A DNA stretch of 64,000 bases, from NCBI RefSeq assembly GCF_036053395.1, contig NZ_CP107942.1:10468001-10532000 (forward strand), read 5' to 3'. Under the pieces are notes generated by a model that ran no database searches, was not told where the DNA came from, and saw nothing but the letters and a program-made list of their open reading frames with translations. The translations under genes were made by a program, and so were the position numbers. The number at the start of each line of letters is the position of its first letter. The stretch's first letter is position 1. Origin of the DNA: Actinoplanes sp. NBC_00393. Lineage in GTDB: Bacteria; Actinomycetota; Actinomycetes; Mycobacteriales; Micromonosporaceae. Below, piece by piece: positions 10,141 to 58,836 of the stretch.

Positions 10141-11055
10141 GTGACGGAAGCGATGCCGGACCTCGGATCCGACGAAGTGGTGGAGCCGGACGAGGCCGGT
10201 ACCGATCTGGTGGTGGTGACCGGTCTCTCCGGCGGTGGGCGCAGCACGGTGGCCCGCGCCCTGGAGAACGTCGGTTTCTACGTGGTCGACAACCTGCCGC
10301 AGGCGCTCATGCTGGAGATGGCGGAGCTGGCCTTCGCCGCGGGGGGTGCGGCCCGGCGGACCGCGATGGTGCTCGACGTACGGAGCAGGGCTTTCTCGAC
10401 CGACCTGGCCGGCGCCGTGCGGGCGCTCAAGGAGCGCGGCTTCTCGCCGCGCGTGGTCTTCGTGGACGCCGACGACGAGGTGCTGATCCGCCGGTTCGAG
10501 TCGGTGCGCCGCTCGCACCCGCTGCAGGGCGACGGCCGGCTGGCCGACGGCATCGCGGCGGAGCGCAAGCTGCTCGAGGAGGCCCGTGACCAGTCCGATG
10601 TGATCATCGACACCAGTCACCTGAACGTGAATCAGCTGCGCCGCCGGGTCGAGGAGCTGTTCGGCGGGGAGGACTCCCGCAAGCTGCGGATCACCGTGCT
10701 CTCCTTCGGCTTCAAGTACGGCCTGCCGCCGGACGCCGACTACGTGCTGGACGCCCGGTTCCTGCCCAACCCGTTCTGGGTGCCGGAGCTGCGCGAGCAC
10801 ACCGGCCTGGAGGAGGGCGTGAGCAGCTATGTGCTGGGCCAGGAGGGGGCGACCGACTTCGTCGCCACCTACGCCGGGCTGATCGCGGCGACCGCGCCCG
10901 GCTTCGAGCGCGAGGGCAAGCGGTATCTGACGGTCGCCATCGGTTGCACCGGCGGCAAGCACCGCAGTGTCGCCATCACCGAGGAGTTGACCTCGCGGCT
11001 GAGCGGGATGCGCCTGTCCGCGCACGCCTCGCACCGCGACCTGGGGCGGGAGTGA
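10141..11055 (+). CDS. rapZ: RNase adapter RapZ (nucleotide-binding protein)
   Basis: RapZ/YvcJ family, 304 residues: P-loop GLSGGGRST near residues 28-36, the VVDNLP motif at about 48-53, and the C-terminal IGCTGGKHRSV motif of the RapZ domain. In E. coli RapZ guides RNase E to the glmZ sRNA; in actinobacteria the role is less clear, although the rapZ-yvcK-whiA cluster is strongly conserved. The third Gly in GGGR replaces the more usual Ala. The start GTG follows GGGAGG by 5 nt. The stop overlaps the yvcK start (GTGA), so the genes are co-transcribed. Confidence 0.93.
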   Translation: MTEAMPDLGSDEVVEPDEAGTDLVVVTGLSGGGRSTVARALENVGFYVVDNLPQALMLEMAELAFAAGGAARRTAMVLDVRSRAFSTDLAGAVRALKERGFSPRVVFVDADDEVLIRRFESVRRSHPLQGDGRLADGIAAERKLLEEARDQSDVIIDTSHLNVNQLRRRVEELFGGEDSRKLRITVLSFGFKYGLPPDADYVLDARFLPNPFWVPELREHTGLEEGVSSYVLGQEGATDFVATYAGLIAATAPGFEREGKRYLTVAIGCTGGKHRSVAITEELTSRLSGMRLSAHASHRDLGRE

Positions 11056-26381: not shown

Positions 26382-27259
26382 TGAGTTCCGAATTTCGGGT
26401 GGCCCTGGTTACCTGCGCCACCTTTCCCGACCTCTGGGACGACGATCACCCCTTGCGTGACGCGCTGCGCGAGCGCGGGGTGATCGTCGAGGCGGTCCGC
26501 TGGGACGACGCCGACGCGGACTGGTCCCGGTACGACCTGACGGTCATCCGCTCCCCGTGGGACTATGTGGCCCGCCGCGACGCCTTCGTCGACTGGGCCC
26601 GCCGCGTGCCACGCCTGGCCAACCCGGCCGACATCATCGCGTGGAACACCGACAAGCGTTATCTGAGCGACCTCGCCGCGGCCGGCATCCCGGCCATCCC
26701 GACCGAGTTCATCGGCCCCGGTGAGACGTGGACGGCGCCGGCCGAGGGCGAGTGGGTGGTCAAGCCGACGATCAGCGCCGGCAGCCAGGACACCGGCCGC
26801 TACACGCTGCCGGCCCAGAGCGCTCTCGCCGAGGCCCACGTCGCGCGCCTCACCACCGCCGGCCGCACCGCGATGATCCAGCCGTACCTTGCCGCGGTCG
26901 ACACGGCCGGCGAGACCGCCGTCCTCTGCACCCCTGACGCGGCCGGCGAGCTGACCTTCAGCCACGGCATCCGCAAGGGCGCCATGCTCAACGCCCCCGG
27001 CGAGGGCGCCAAGGACGCCGGCGACGAGAACATCAGCCCGCGCACCCCGTCACCCGCCGAGCTGGACCTCGCCGCACGCGTCCTGGCCGCGGTCCCCGGC
27101 GGTGCCAAGCGCCTCCTCTACGCCCGCGTCGACATGATTCCGGGCCCGGACGGCTCGCCGCTGCTCATCGAACTCGAGCTCACCGAGCCCTCGCTCTTCC
27201 TGCGCACCGCGCCCGGCGCCGCCGCCCGCCTGGCCGACGCCATCCTCACCCGCCTCTGA
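26381..27259 (+). CDS. ATP-grasp domain protein
   Basis: 292 residues with an N-terminal preATP-grasp fold (VALVTCATFPDLWDDDHPL...VIRSPWDYV), the lysine-bearing strand EGEWVVKPTISAGSQDT (~120-136) and the C-terminal metal/ATP-binding ARVDMIPGPDG...LIELELTEPSLFL. The sequence type is that of glutathione-synthetase-like ATP-grasp ligases that join a carboxylate to an amine. Substrates are unknown. The GTG overlaps the upstream stop by one nt. Confidence 0.85.
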   Translation: MSSEFRVALVTCATFPDLWDDDHPLRDALRERGVIVEAVRWDDADADWSRYDLTVIRSPWDYVARRDAFVDWARRVPRLANPADIIAWNTDKRYLSDLAAAGIPAIPTEFIGPGETWTAPAEGEWVVKPTISAGSQDTGRYTLPAQSALAEAHVARLTTAGRTAMIQPYLAAVDTAGETAVLCTPDAAGELTFSHGIRKGAMLNAPGEGAKDAGDENISPRTPSPAELDLAARVLAAVPGGAKRLLYARVDMIPGPDGSPLLIELELTEPSLFLRTAPGAAARLADAILTRL

Positions 27260-27324
27260 CGCCCCACCCCGAGACAACTCGTCGGCCGTCGCGGTCGCGC
27301 GTCGGCCTGAATTCCACCCCCTCC

Positions 27325-27425
27325 CCGGTACGCGCGACGCCGCTCCGCCGACCTACACCGTCCCGCCGCACGACGCGATCACCAGCCCGCTCCAGGCCGC
27401 CCGGCGCCCGCCGGGCTCATGCAGG
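27325..27425 (+). repeat. Left 101-bp inverted-repeat arm
   Basis: Begins CCGGTACGCGCGACGCCGCT. It is the reverse complement of 27816-27916 with 5 mismatches in 101 positions and no gaps. Similarity stops at both ends of the arm. Confidence 0.95.
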
Positions 27426-27478
27426 TGGCCGGCCGGGCCGCCCTTGGCCGGCCGTCGCGCAGTGCTTCTGCTCTCTCG

Positions 27479-27525
27479 GCAGCGCTCGCCGTCAGCCGCC
27501 ACGCAGGGCTGACGCCGAGCGCTGC
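27479..27525 (+). repeat. Hairpin leading into the 62-bp array
   Basis: GCAGCGCTC (27479-27487) and GAGCGCTGC (27517-27525) form a perfect 9-bp outer stem. It is extended inward by CGTCAGC / GCTGACG with one-base irregularities. The right half is the start of repeat copy 1. Confidence 0.75.
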
Positions 27526-27785
27526 TTCGCGCCGCCGGAGGCGACGCTGGCGGTCAGCTGGTTTGCTCGGCTGACGCCGAGTGCTGCTTCGCGCCGGCGG
27601 AGGCGACATTGGCGGTCAGCTGGTTTGCTCGGCTGACGCCGAGTGCTGCTTCGCGCGGCGGGAGGCGACATTGGCGGTCAGCTGGTTTGCTCGGCTGACG
27701 CCGAGTGCTGCTTCGCGCCGGCGGAGGCGACGCTGGCGGTCAGCTGGTTTGCTCGGCTGACGCCGAGTGCTGCTTTGCGTCGCCA
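27507..27785 (+). repeat. 62-bp tandem repeat, about 4.5 copies
   Basis: Copies start at 27507, 27569, 27631 and 27693, with a partial copy at 27755. Each begins GGCTGACGCCGAG and ends GGTCAGCTGGTTTGCTC. The ends of each unit (GCTGACGCC and GGCGGTCAGC) can pair, so each copy can form its own hairpin. Reading frames through it are by-products of the repeat. Confidence 0.95.
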
Positions 27786-27815
27786 AGGAGCGGTCCGGGG
27801 TTGTGAGAGTGGGCG

Positions 27816-27916
27816 CCTGCATCAGCCCGGCGGCCGCCGGGCGGCCTGGAGCGGGCAAGTGATCGCGTCGTGCGGCGGGACGGTGTAGTTCGGCGGAGCG
27901 GCGTCGCGCGTACCGG
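27816..27916 (-). repeat. Right 101-bp inverted-repeat arm
   Basis: Reverse complement of 27325-27425 (96 of 101 positions identical). It ends GCGCGTACCGG just before the 3' end of ctaA. No flanking target duplication is obvious. Confidence 0.95.
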
Positions 27917-27945
27917 AAAAGCGCTTGAGGAAGGTCTCGCTGTGC

Positions 27946-28896
27946 TCAGGCCGCGCTGACCGGCTCGGCCGGGTGAAGATCGTCGAGCGGCGCCGTAGGC
28001 GGCGTGGCCAGCAAGACGGGGCGTTCGCGCAGGGACCAGAGGACCGCGAGGGTGGAGGTCCAGACCAGGCCGGAGCCGAGCATGTGTGCGGCGACCAGGA
28101 GGACCGGCAGGTTGGTGAAGTACTGGACGAAGCCGATCACGCCCTGGCCGAGCTCGACGGCGATCAGTACGACGGCGGCGCGGATCGCGGTCGGGGGAGC
28201 GTTGACCGCGCGCAGGGCGAACCAGAGCGCGACGCTGAGGCCGATCAGCAGGAACACCAGGTCGGCGTGGATCTGCGAGACGGTTGCCGGGTCGAGGCCG
28301 TTGCGCTTGGCGTTCGCGTCGCCGGCGTGCGGGCCGCTGCCGGTGACCACGACGCCGGCCGCGATGACCGCGAAGCTGACCGTGGTGGTGATCCACGCCA
28401 GGTGGCGGATCGGGGCGGGCACCAGCCGGACCGGCTCGCCGTCGCCCTCGCCGGCGCGGCGCCACAGGGCGTAGCAGCCGGCGATCAGCGCGACGGAGAG
28501 GATGAAGTGCAGGCCGACCACCCACGGGTTGAGGTCGGTGAGCACCGTGATCCCGCCCACCACGCCCTGGCCGGGGATGCCGAGCGCGACCGCGACCGAC
28601 AGCACGATCAGCGCCCGGCGGCGGGTCGCCAGCGCGGCCGCGAAGCAGGCGAAGGCGAGCGCGACCAGCACGAACGTCAGCAAGCGGTTGCCGAACTCGA
28701 TCACACCGTGGATGCCCATCTCGGGTGTGGTCGTGTACGAGTCCTCGGTGCATCGCGGCCAGGTGGGACAGCCGAGGCCGGATTTGGTCAGCCGGACGGC
28801 CGCGCCGGTGACGATCAGGCCGACGTTGGCGATCAGGGACGCCAGGGCGAGCGGGCGCATGGCGGAGGCCAGACGGCTCAACGCGGAGGACTTCAC
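27946..28896 (-). CDS. ctaA: Heme A synthase (COX15/CtaA family)
   Basis: Oxidises heme O to heme A for aa3-type cytochrome oxidase. 316 residues, eight TM helices expected; GAAVRLTKSGLGCPTWPRC near residues 32-50 is the family signature with a Cys pair, and heme-ligand His residues lie in IHGVIEFGNR, GLHFILS, QIHADLVF and AAHMLGSG. GTG at 28896 follows TACGAT (28904-28909) by 7 nt; the frame is open upstream without family similarity. Divergent from sufR. Confidence 0.93.
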   Translation of the reverse strand: MKSSALSRLASAMRPLALASLIANVGLIVTGAAVRLTKSGLGCPTWPRCTEDSYTTTPEMGIHGVIEFGNRLLTFVLVALAFACFAAALATRRRALIVLSVAVALGIPGQGVVGGITVLTDLNPWVVGLHFILSVALIAGCYALWRRAGEGDGEPVRLVPAPIRHLAWITTTVSFAVIAAGVVVTGSGPHAGDANAKRNGLDPATVSQIHADLVFLLIGLSVALWFALRAVNAPPTAIRAAVVLIAVELGQGVIGFVQYFTNLPVLLVAAHMLGSGLVWTSTLAVLWSLRERPVLLATPPTAPLDDLHPAEPVSAA

Positions 28897-35191: not shown

Positions 35192-35776
35192 ATGACTGAC
35201 AAGACCGATACCGCTCAGACCGTGGCGACCGCCCCGGGCTCGGCCACCGACCCCTCCGTCGACGAGGTTCCGGCCTGGCTCGCCGCCGAGCGTGCCGAGG
35301 CCGCCGAGGGTGGCGAGCCGGTCGAGGTTCCGTCGGCCGCAGTCTCAGAGGCTGCCGTCTCGGAGTCTGCCGTGTCGGCGGCTGCCGTCTCGGAGGCCGC
35401 CATCTCGGCGGCCGCCTCCTCGGAGGCCGCCGACAAGCCCGCGGTCACCAAGAAGGCCTCCGTCGCCGACGTCGAAGAGGCGATGAAGGACGTCGTCGAC
35501 CCCGAGCTCGGCATCAACGTGGTCGATTTGGGCCTGGTCTACGGCACCCACATCGACGACGACAACGTGGCCACCCTGGACATGACGCTGACCTCGGCGG
35601 CCTGCCCGCTGACCGACGTGATCGAGGACCAGACCCGGCAGGCGCTGACCACCGGCCCCGGCGGCGGACTGGTCCAGGACTTCCGGATCAACTGGGTCTG
35701 GCTGCCGCCGTGGGGCCCGGACAAGATCACCGACGACGGGCGCGAGCAGTTGCGCGCGCTGGGTTTCAACGTCTGA
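35192..35776 (+). CDS. sufT: SufT-like metal-sulfur cluster assembly factor (MIP18/DUF59) with repeat-bearing N-terminus
   Basis: The C-terminal ~105 residues are the MIP18/DUF59 domain (VEEAMKDVVDPELGINVVDLGLVYG; catalytic-type Cys in LTSAACPLTDVIEDQ; VWLPPWGPDKITDDGREQLRALGF). SufT proteins help cluster maturation or carriage. The first ~85 residues are Ala/Ser/Val/Glu-rich, including six pentapeptides of AVSEA type from a 15-bp tandem array, and are probably disordered. GAGGAGG precedes the ATG. Last gene of the suf operon. Confidence 0.93.
   Translation: MTDKTDTAQTVATAPGSATDPSVDEVPAWLAAERAEAAEGGEPVEVPSAAVSEAAVSESAVSAAAVSEAAISAAASSEAADKPAVTKKASVADVEEAMKDVVDPELGINVVDLGLVYGTHIDDDNVATLDMTLTSAACPLTDVIEDQTRQALTTGPGGGLVQDFRINWVWLPPWGPDKITDDGREQLRALGFNV
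35339..35428 (+). repeat. 15-bp tandem repeat inside sufT (6 copies)
   Basis: Six in-frame units near GCCGTCTCGGAGGCT starting at 35339, 35354, 35369, 35384, 35399 and 35414. They encode AVSEA, AVSES, AVSAA, AVSEA, AISAA and ASSEA. Confidence 0.93.
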
Positions 35777-36630: not shown

Positions 36631-36870
36631 TTGCCAGCTCGGTTGGTGGCGCTGCCCTTTGCCAGCTCGCGGTCGGTGGGGGCTGCCCATTGCCGAGTCA
36701 GCGTTGGCCACGGCGCCCTCGTCATCTTGGGTTAGTGGCGCCCGGTCAGCTTGGGTTGGTGGCGCCCGGTCAGCTTGGGTTGGTGGCGGCGCGCTCGTCA
36801 GCGCCGGTTCGTGGCGCTGTCCGTTGTCAGCTTCGGTTCGTGGCGCTGTCCCTTGTCAGCTCGGGTTTGC
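36631..36870 (+). repeat. Degenerate minisatellite, about 8 copies of 24-31 bp
   Basis: Copies centre on TCAGCTTGGGTTGGTGGCGC, e.g. at 36746 and 36770, with diverged copies on both sides. The last copy runs over the stop codon of the alpha/beta hydrolase (36856-36858). It fills the 252 nt between the two convergent genes. Confidence 0.8.
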
Positions 36871-37935
36871 GAGGAAGGAGACGAGCAAGGCGTTGGTGAG
36901 GTCGGGACGCTCCAGGCTGGGCAGGTGGCCGGCCCAGTCCAGATGCAGGTGGCGGGCGTGTGGCAGCACCCCGGCCAGATGAACCGCGATCTCCTCGAAG
37001 TCCGGCAGGTCATGCGCCCCGGATACGACCAGCGCCGGCGCGACGATCGAGCTGAGATCCACCCCGCCGTCCTCCGTGGCGCCTTGCTGCGCGTCGGCCT
37101 CCGCCTCCGCGGTGGGCTGCGAAGTGGCGAGCTCGGCATTCGCGGCGAGCTGCCGGTCGGTGGCGGATTGGGCCGGAGCCAGCTCAGCTTTCTCGGCCGG
37201 CTCAGCGGTGGTGGCGGCCTGTGCATGCGCGGCCTGTTCATGCACGGCCTGTGCATGCGCGGCCTGTGCCTGTGCTGCCTCTGCCTCTGCAGCTTGTGCT
37301 TGCGCGCCCTGAGCCGGTGCCGGTGCCGGTGCCTTTGCCTGTGCCTGTGCCTGCGCCTGTGCAGACTCTGCCTCTGCTTGGGCTTGCGCGACCTCCGACT
37401 GTGCGGCCGTTGCGTCTACGGCGAGCTGGACCTCGAAGGCGTGGCGCTGCATCATGCGGACCTTGGACCGGGTTGCTTCGTCTGCTTCCGGGCCGAGCCA
37501 GAGGTTGACGTTGAGTTCGGTGGCACCGGCAACGTCGCCGGCCTCCAGCAGGGCGTCCTCCTGGGCACCGAACTTTCGCAGCTCGACGCTCGGCTCGTGC
37601 CCACGCATCGCGGAGCAGAGCAACGCCAGCGCGCTGACTCGGGCCGGCCACCGCGCGGCGAACTCGAGCGCCACCCGGCCGCCGCCGGAGGCGCCGACCA
37701 CCGCCAGGCGTTCGATGCCGAGCGAGTCGAGCAGGTCGGCGACGTCCTGCACGTTGTCGAAGGGGCCGTCGGGAACCGGCGAATCGCCGTACCCGCTCAG
37801 GTCGCAGCGGACCACCTGGTAGCCGGCGCCGGTCAGGGCGGGCATCTGCGGATCCCACATGTGCCGGTCGCAAACGGTCGAGTGCAGGAGAAGCACGGCC
37901 GGCCCGTGGCCGGATACGTCATAAGCAAGAGTCAT
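36856..37935 (-). CDS. Alpha/beta hydrolase with ~115-residue Ala/Gln-rich insertion
   Basis: 359 residues. Residues 1-175 and 292-359 together make a normal-sized alpha/beta hydrolase: oxyanion region LLHST (16-20), nucleophile elbow GASGG (Ser83), Asp309 in SGAHD and His337 in WAGHLP. Between them lies a low-complexity stretch (about 176-291) rich in Ala, Gln and Glu, built from short repeats, which replaces or extends the cap-to-core linker. All three catalytic residues survive, so it may be active. TACGGT (37943-37948) lies 7 nt before the ATG (leaderless). Substrate unknown. Confidence 0.85.
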   Translation of the reverse strand: MTLAYDVSGHGPAVLLLHSTVCDRHMWDPQMPALTGAGYQVVRCDLSGYGDSPVPDGPFDNVQDVADLLDSLGIERLAVVGASGGGRVALEFAARWPARVSALALLCSAMRGHEPSVELRKFGAQEDALLEAGDVAGATELNVNLWLGPEADEATRSKVRMMQRHAFEVQLAVDATAAQSEVAQAQAEAESAQAQAQAQAKAPAPAPAQGAQAQAAEAEAAQAQAAHAQAVHEQAAHAQAATTAEPAEKAELAPAQSATDRQLAANAELATSQPTAEAEADAQQGATEDGGVDLSSIVAPALVVSGAHDLPDFEEIAVHLAGVLPHARHLHLDWAGHLPSLERPDLTNALLVSFLANPS

Positions 37936-37985
37936 CGAGGCGACCGTAGCCAGCCGCCTGCGACTCTGCACCAAGTTTTCGCCGG

Positions 37986-38066
37986 GCCCGGACCGACCAG
38001 CCGAGCCCGGCCCGACCAGCCGAGCCCGGCCCGACCAGCTGAACCCGGCCCGGCCAGCCGAGCCCG
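37986..38066 (+). repeat. 19-bp tandem repeat, about 4.3 copies
   Basis: Unit GCCCGGCCCGACCAGCCGA at 37986, 38005, 38024 and 38043 with a partial fifth copy. It lies between the promoter of the alpha/beta hydrolase and the VOC gene, in a 328-nt gene-free stretch. The rest of that stretch (38067-38263) turns AT-richer towards the VOC promoter and holds no gene. Confidence 0.9.
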
Positions 38067-38263
38067 GCATTGCATCCGTGCCCGAAGTGCAGCTCGAGCC
38101 GGCCGAGCCCGGCGTGCCTTCGGTGCCCAAACCCAGCCCGATCCGGCCCGACTCGCTGTGGACGGTTCATCCGCTGCGTTATTCGCGGACAGTTTGCGCA
38201 GCTCAGTGCATCAATGTGCCAACCCATGGGCGCTGATTGGCGAAGCCTGGATAGATGGAGGGC

Positions 38264-38978: not shown

Positions 38979-39172
38979 GGGCCGGACCGGCAGGAGCCCG
39001 GCGAGTGGGCCGGACCGGTAGGGGCCCGGCAAGCGGGCCGGACCGGCAGGAGCCCGGCGAGTGGGCCGGACCGGTAGGGCCCGGCGAGTGGGCCGGACCG
39101 GTAGGGGCCCGGCGACTGGGGCCGGACCAGCAGGAGGCCGGCGAATTCGCCGGACTGGCAGGGAGCCGACGT
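38979..39172 (+). repeat. 28-bp tandem repeat, about 6.5 copies
   Basis: Units of 27-29 bp that begin GGGCCGGACCGG and end CCCGGCGAGT or CCCGGCAAGC; GCAGGAG and GTAGGGG variants alternate. It occupies almost the whole gap between the convergent VOC and MFS genes. Confidence 0.92.
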
Positions 39173-58688: not shown

Positions 58689-58789
58689 TGTACGTCGACC
58701 ACGTGCTCAAGCCCGGCGGTCGCCATGAAGGCCTGGAATGGCACCCGGGTCGCGTTGCACTCCGGGAACTTTTCGTCGGGCGTACCCCG

Positions 58790-58836
58790 AAAAAGGCAGA
58801 CGCCCTGCCTTCCGTGACCGGAAAGCAGGGCGTCTG
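58790..58836 (-). terminator. Terminator of acnA (possibly bidirectional)
   Basis: Stem CAGACGCCCTGC / GCAGGGCGTCTG (12 bp) continued by TTCCG / CGGAA around a 4-nt loop with one mismatch. Read on the minus strand it is followed by a T5 run, 14 nt past the acnA stop. It also separates acnA from the convergent acetyltransferase gene. Confidence 0.88.

Follow-up and report, generated by a model that had tools for sequence, protein, structure and literature searches.

A gene-less palindromic repeat family at gene ends in Actinoplanes, probably a non-autonomous mobile element

Structure of the element and its surroundings

The window referred to below is the whole 64,000-nucleotide stretch of Actinoplanes sp. 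NBC_00393 DNA that was analyzed (NZ_CP107942.1, positions 10,468,001 to 10,532,000). Two convergent genes in this window flank a palindromic element, and two further arms of the same kind are located elsewhere in it. The relevant features are as follows.

26399–27259, + strand: left convergent gene, 286 aa, without a Pfam match (gene prediction and Pfam search)
27313–27430, + strand: left arm (terminal inverted repeat), pointing away from the left gene; recognized by similarity to other copies and complementarity to the right arm
27431–27506, no strand: spacer from left arm to array; within it, 27479–27497 matches the beginning of the first unit in inverted orientation
27507–27784, no strand: 4.5 copies of a 62-bp dyad unit (tandem-repeat detection and unit profile)
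27811–27928, − strand: right arm, an inverted copy of the left-arm sequence, pointing away from ctaA
27946–28896, − strand: right convergent gene, COX15/CtaA family (gene prediction and Pfam search)
2018–2108, − strand: solo arm between two + strand genes (arm search in the window)
58702–58790, − strand: solo arm between convergent genes; its start coincides with the T-run of a terminator-like, strong hairpin

A sequence-only reading had described the palindrome as a 592-bp element with two 101-bp inverted arms, a 62-bp tandem array of self-folding units and no gene, located exactly between two convergent stop codons. The arms are confirmed: 27325–27430 and 27811–27916 are 93% complementary over 106 nt, and 95% over the first 101. 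The array is equally clear, with a period of 62, 4.5 copies and 93% matches across 27507–27784. The gene caller predicted no gene within the window copy; in a mechanical list of ORFs, two of 80 and 81 aa fall within the element, and one of 337 aa (27740–28753, minus strand) extends into it. The location between convergent genes also holds, but the word "exactly" does not. The 592-bp stretch is separated by 65 nt from the left stop, whose last base is 27259, and by 29 nt from the end of the right gene at 27946. Moreover, similarity to other copies starts ∼12 nt further out than the two ends of this stretch. Likewise, many of the units can fold on themselves, but 27626–27686 folds poorly (−19.7) and forms no simple hairpin.

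Conserved blocks in the arm are GGTACG, CGTCCC, CGCGA, GGCC, and GCGnCCGCCGGG. The product of the left gene may be ATP-grasp-like. Elsewhere in the window, short tandem repeats (periods 6–84) cluster within 4 kb, at 35282–35432, 36631–36861, 37214–37362, 37981–38068, and 38979–39163.

A large dispersed repeat family in some Actinoplanes species

The palindrome belongs to a large, dispersed, gene-less repeat family found in some Actinoplanes. A left-arm search that covered 60 relatives yielded at least 15 matches in the window's own genome (G000), at least 16 in G015, and at least 14 each in G019 and G021, which, like G029, are related genomes used for comparison. Some match was obtained in 28 of the 60 genomes, mostly a weak one. 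A profile built from 26 arms finds at least 150 matches in G000 (weakest listed E 3.7e-4) at no fewer than 133 distinct places, at least 149 in G015, 148 in G019, and 150 in G021, and 86 in G029; whole-genome counts of arms are lower bounds, and the profile E-values are rough. The copies elsewhere that the sequence-only reading had named as a check are thus abundant in the genome itself, and further ones exist in its relatives.

Over 200 Micromonosporaceae genomes, the arm profile matches 15 at E ≤ 1e-5, all of them Actinoplanes, and at this threshold the arm is absent from 20 of the 35 Actinoplanes genomes listed in the same search. A 400-kb sample taken at even intervals across G000 contains four arms, three of them below E 1e-6; the best match in the reversed-sequence control of this sample has E = 0.21. 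Arms are scarce opposite dnaA (located at 8.53 Mb in G000), with only six between 2 and 3 Mb and three between 3 and 4 Mb among the 150 listed.

Neighboring arms face each other. All 17 of the listed G000 pairs less than 1.3 kb apart, and 27 of the 28 listed G021 pairs less than 2.5 kb apart, are inverted with the GGTACG ends outward. The outer end of the repeat is provisional. Of 30 G021 arms compared (among loci L137–L140 and L199–L235), about nine share ∼30 nt more outside the GGTACG end (roughly TTTCGTGGTCGAGGTCCGCGTTTCGCTTCC), and some arms may be ∼30 nt longer than the core. AGATC is weak as an outer-end word, being present in 6 of 67 G000 arms and 6 of 40 G021 arms. The motif TTTTCCGGTACG is found 16 times in G000 (control, 0) and 13–34 times in some other Actinoplanes genomes. 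We rejected it as a wider motif independent of the arm, given that 10 of 20 fetched places without a listed arm fall in predicted genes; among the seven intergenic G000 places without a listed arm, four resemble diverged arms by eye.

The family is apparently undescribed. An Rfam search gave two matches up to E 1, the better one with E = 0.62 and 24 bits, where the gathering threshold is 90, and the 592-bp sequence matched nothing among plasmids and phages. Searches of the open-licence literature yielded no description of the family. The earlier statement that no recognized repeat family explains the element therefore stands with respect to Rfam and these literature searches, yet the element is a member of a family of its own.

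Presence, absence, and possible decay of copies in related species

Two-armed elements were inspected for 19 of the 27 listed close pairs of G021, mostly the longer ones (0.98–2.07 kb). None of the 19 holds a predicted gene, and 14 are located between convergent genes. When 27 element interiors were compared, matches were observed in 207 of 351 pairs, with few for the interiors of G000; the 25 best-covered pairs are 81%–94% alike in the first matched stretch.

The sister species G019 and G021 (229 orthologues, median 95% at the amino acid level) share 205 intergenic regions. Arms are present in both species in three of these regions, in G019 only in two, and in G021 only in two. The two G021-only regions are 1451 bp each and correspond to G019 gaps of 56 and 4 bp, in which the copy is absent. 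One of these two G021 elements has a right arm only, and of the two arms listed for G019 only, one apparently persists in G021 in decayed form, as judged by eye. We infer insertion rather than deletion at such filled and empty sites, although absence from the sister species fits deletion as well. A further solo arm, with a hairpin behind it by eye, is present in G015 where G000 has a 9-bp gap. No target duplication is readable by eye, and no clean boundary is seen, in the G021/G019 filled and empty pairs or in the G015/G000 pair.

Inspection of positions 2010–2205 of the window by eye reveals a right arm in G000, both ends in G015, both arms in G021, and a left arm in G019; by profile, a right arm is recognized in three of the four (G000, G015, and G021), and G019 gives no match. 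Because four species keep different arms at one site, solo arms look like remnants. At the place of the window element itself, G015 has one arm on the ctaA side that is 72%–75% identical to either window arm. G019 and G021 have no arm there by profile, and their gaps of 87 and 83 bp hold an ordinary hairpin plus a stub that by eye is like the outer end of the arm. Arms found only here, with the same flanks in all relatives, would have argued against mobility; instead, the number of arms at this place differs between species.

A second palindromic repeat (CAAAACGCCGCCGGTG...GAGGCA...CACCGG...GGCGTTTTGCCGCGGAGCGAAGCGGAGC) was noticed at two G021 places, in gaps with arm material (L240–L243 joined, within 10152–10664; L199–L215 joined, within 94395–94681).

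Arms behind stop codons and a possible role in termination

The placement of arms relative to genes was determined at 50 G000 sites, drawn from the window and 48 loci fetched for strong arm matches. Among the 49 sites with both neighbors known, 34 are convergent, whereas the 400-kb sample has 54 convergent pairs among 329 (p = 1e-13); 11 are tandem and four are divergent. None of 62 arms is fully within a predicted gene, even though 84% of the sample is coding, and a few overlap the last codons of a gene. A stop codon precedes the arm in gene sense for 50 of 63 arms, but not for the other 13. For these 50, the distance from stop to GGTACG is 7–13 nt in 20 cases and 25–66 nt in another 20.

This pattern bears on the suggestion that the element is a bidirectional transcription barrier. 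The C-rich, unstructured arm would be a putative landing site for Rho or another factor, would have replaced ordinary terminators, and would be kept for this reason. Arm composition is in keeping with such a role (C 44%, G 29%; median C/G 1.73 versus 1.08 in controls), as C-rich, G-poor, unstructured RNA behind a stop codon is a feature of Rho-dependent terminators. Furthermore, in 28 genes whose stop is followed by an arm at no more than 15 nt, the next 70 nt contain no strong hairpin (median −12.3 kcal/mol); at 46 convergent ends that have no arm, the median is −20.3 kcal/mol (p = 1e-6). However, this result follows in part from the arm taking up the stretch in question, and the 23 genes with an arm 16–75 nt behind the stop (median −15.4) do not differ significantly from controls (p = 0.17). 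In several cases, the start of the arm is the T-run of an intact, strong terminator hairpin. The tandem and divergent sites, as well as the Actinoplanes genomes in which no arm is detected at the threshold used, also speak against such a barrier. Arms may influence termination, as their location and the missing hairpins near close arms indirectly suggest, and we regard a barrier function as a tentative alternative.

The convergent gap behind ctaA seems to be a gathering place for unrelated repeat families. The corresponding gaps of G007, G010, and G014 carry other palindromic or tandem repeats (L073 1287–1453, L076 1068–1361, and L079 727–1474).

The 62-bp unit and tests for a selected hairpin

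The 62-bp unit, with a family consensus of about GGCTGACnCnCAGnGCTGCTTC-N9-GAAGCAGCrCTGnCnGTCAGCC, is itself a second dispersed repeat. The G000 DNA examined holds 141 units in 35 arrays, and 92 of 106 spacings between unit centers are 62–64 bp. Ten arrays, one of them a single unit, are present in the 400-kb sample, which was not chosen for the unit; this suggests a few hundred arrays per genome. Some arrays are likewise found close to the ends of genes. In this sample, the single unit almost fills a 73-bp gap between convergent genes. One array provides the stop codon of its gene by eye. Only three of the nine sample arrays with both neighbors known are convergent, and the preference for such sites is therefore weaker for arrays than for arms. 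A unit model matched 17 of the 200 family genomes, 14 of them Actinoplanes and three, matched weakly, outside the genus. Both modules are present in 11 genomes at the thresholds used.

The sequence-only reading proposed that the arms could form a cruciform or a giant RNA hairpin. Folded as RNA, the 592 bp reach −483 kcal/mol (z = −19.5), and 0 of 100 shuffles fold as well. The consensus fold of 26 arms is −2.7 kcal/mol with no compensatory pair, and that of 82 arms is 0.0 kcal/mol. The first 30 nt of these 82 arms fold no better than shuffles (mean z 0.08), and the arms themselves show no hairpin followed by a T-run. Moreover, in only five of 12 pairs does the similarity of partner arms clearly exceed that of non-partner pairs (above 97% of them), and thus pairing is not generally maintained. 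The unit does form a 52-bp dyad, with 76.4% of cells paired versus 25%–46% when slid, but among 57 units the compensatory pairing is not above that of shuffles (76.4% versus 77.5%; score 0.116 versus 0.134). Since compensatory changes do not exceed chance for arm or unit, a selected hairpin is unlikely for either, and these tests lend no support to the idea that either was selected to form a cruciform or a giant hairpin.

The unit dyad would be better suited to binding as DNA than to an RNA hairpin, because its variable positions do not compensate beyond chance; the invariant pairs fit both equally well. Another explanation holds that the unit is a dyad site for a putative DNA-binding protein, clustered as for a nucleoid or partition factor, and that its association with the arm arose by chance or joint spread. 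All 57 units used align without gaps, with 12 invariant columns next to very variable ones, but these are 57 of 75 non-redundant units, mostly better scoring, and leaving out partial profile matches favors gap-free ones. The regular spacing of unit centers could reflect bound protein, although homogenization of tandem copies is also able to keep it. Array period is 70–71 bp in 15 of 19 G021 elements; therefore there is no fixed helical phase, and helical phasing of 62 bp (six turns) was dropped as a rule. No protein was found for the dyad, and as an account of the element this explanation seems doubtful.

A non-autonomous mobile element as the best explanation

The 592-bp stretch is probably a copy of a non-autonomous Actinoplanes mobile element that is retained at gene ends and whose terminal inverted repeats are unusually long. 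The many copies, their inverted pairing, and their absence from matching sites of a sister species all favor this possibility, which was among those first proposed for the palindrome. The arms would represent the terminal inverted repeats, ∼115 bp and longer in some copies, and the interior would be filler made largely of tandem units. An enzyme acting in trans presumably moved the element. Copies would settle or survive just behind stop codons, where the arms are indeed located, above all between convergent genes, where an arm copy breaks neither gene. Over time, one arm or the center may be lost to give solo arms, as seen by eye at one site. The two arms of the window copy are still very alike (0.92 identical, versus a mean of 0.755 and a maximum of 0.90 for 1879 non-partner pairs), and thus this copy was probably inserted, or its arms made alike, recently compared to most others.

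Some observations do not fit easily with a mobile element. As noted above, fewer than half of the partner pairs stand out in similarity, and the scarcity of arms opposite dnaA is the reverse of what is expected for a selfish element. No transposase was found in the 19 two-armed G021 elements, and no autonomous element with the same ends is seen among the listed arm pairs of G000 and G021. A 3.3-kb arm pair was rejected as an autonomous copy because it encloses ordinary genes (MCP, solute-binding protein).

A combined scenario is that the mobile element was co-opted to form genome-wide two-way barriers. The arm would act as a sequence-specific, structure-free terminator replacing hairpins, and the dyads, as putative sites for a host protein, would reinforce the block between convergent genes. 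We consider this unlikely.

REP sequences are present in high copy number, form inverted doublets, and are located behind genes and between convergent genes, according to two reports (PMC3733652, PMC3116915). Actinoplanes arms resemble these REP, BIME, and REPIN elements in number, doublet arrangement, and gene-end location, and might similarly have been moved by a Y1 (RAYT) transposase. Y1 matches are indeed present in five of eight arm-bearing genomes tested, versus one of six without arms. However, there is no Y1 match in the other three arm-bearing genomes (G015, G231, and G197), the matches in G000 are limited to two partial ones, of which one contains a stop, and the search as a whole does not support a RAYT link. 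Relative to REP elements, the Actinoplanes modules are also much longer (units of 52–62 bp and arms of 115 nt rather than hairpins of 20–40 bp), with no GTAG/CGTC-tagged hairpin seen by eye and no covarying hairpin. A REP-like origin is thus quite improbable.

Two equal-scoring matches to DnaA-like ATPases were observed in G000 (C1:88905–89207 and 231367–231669), which we take to be possibly duplicated IS helper genes.

Finally, long inverted repeats are error-prone in assembly, but an artefact or a chance palindrome deserves practically no weight, as similar copies in other assemblies, a G000 assembly of one contig, and the reversed-sequence control refute both for the family.

Relationship to known elements and significance

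Bacterial MITEs (miniature inverted-repeat transposable elements) have terminal inverted repeats and no gene, and their dispersed intergenic copies are absent from some matching sites. The non-autonomous element proposed here is similar in each respect: it has terminal inverted repeats, carries no transposase gene in the copies inspected, and exists in many dispersed intergenic copies whose presence varies between relatives. In contrast to MITEs, its inverted repeats are ∼115 bp or more, its size ranges from ∼0.28 to 2.1 kb, and its interior holds tandem arrays whose period depends on the species (62–63 or 70–71 bp). It also differs in that neither an autonomous partner (among pairs of G000 and G021) nor a target duplication (by eye) was seen.

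Drosophila foldback (FB) elements likewise combine long inverted repeats with tandem repeats, but there the tandem repeats are within the arms; in the Actinoplanes element, whose host is a bacterium, they are between them. Like intrinsic terminators, the arm is found directly behind stop codons and sometimes adjoins a T-run, but it has no conserved hairpin.

A single genome of this genus, which is used in industry, carries 150 arms or more and, by estimate, a few hundred arrays of the unit. These repeats provide a natural experiment for asking why small mobile DNA accumulates behind genes, whether it assumes the role of hairpins in termination, and by what steps an inverted repeat is reduced to one arm. 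Should the barrier reading be true, the arms would be ready-made, hairpin-free terminators for high-GC bacteria.
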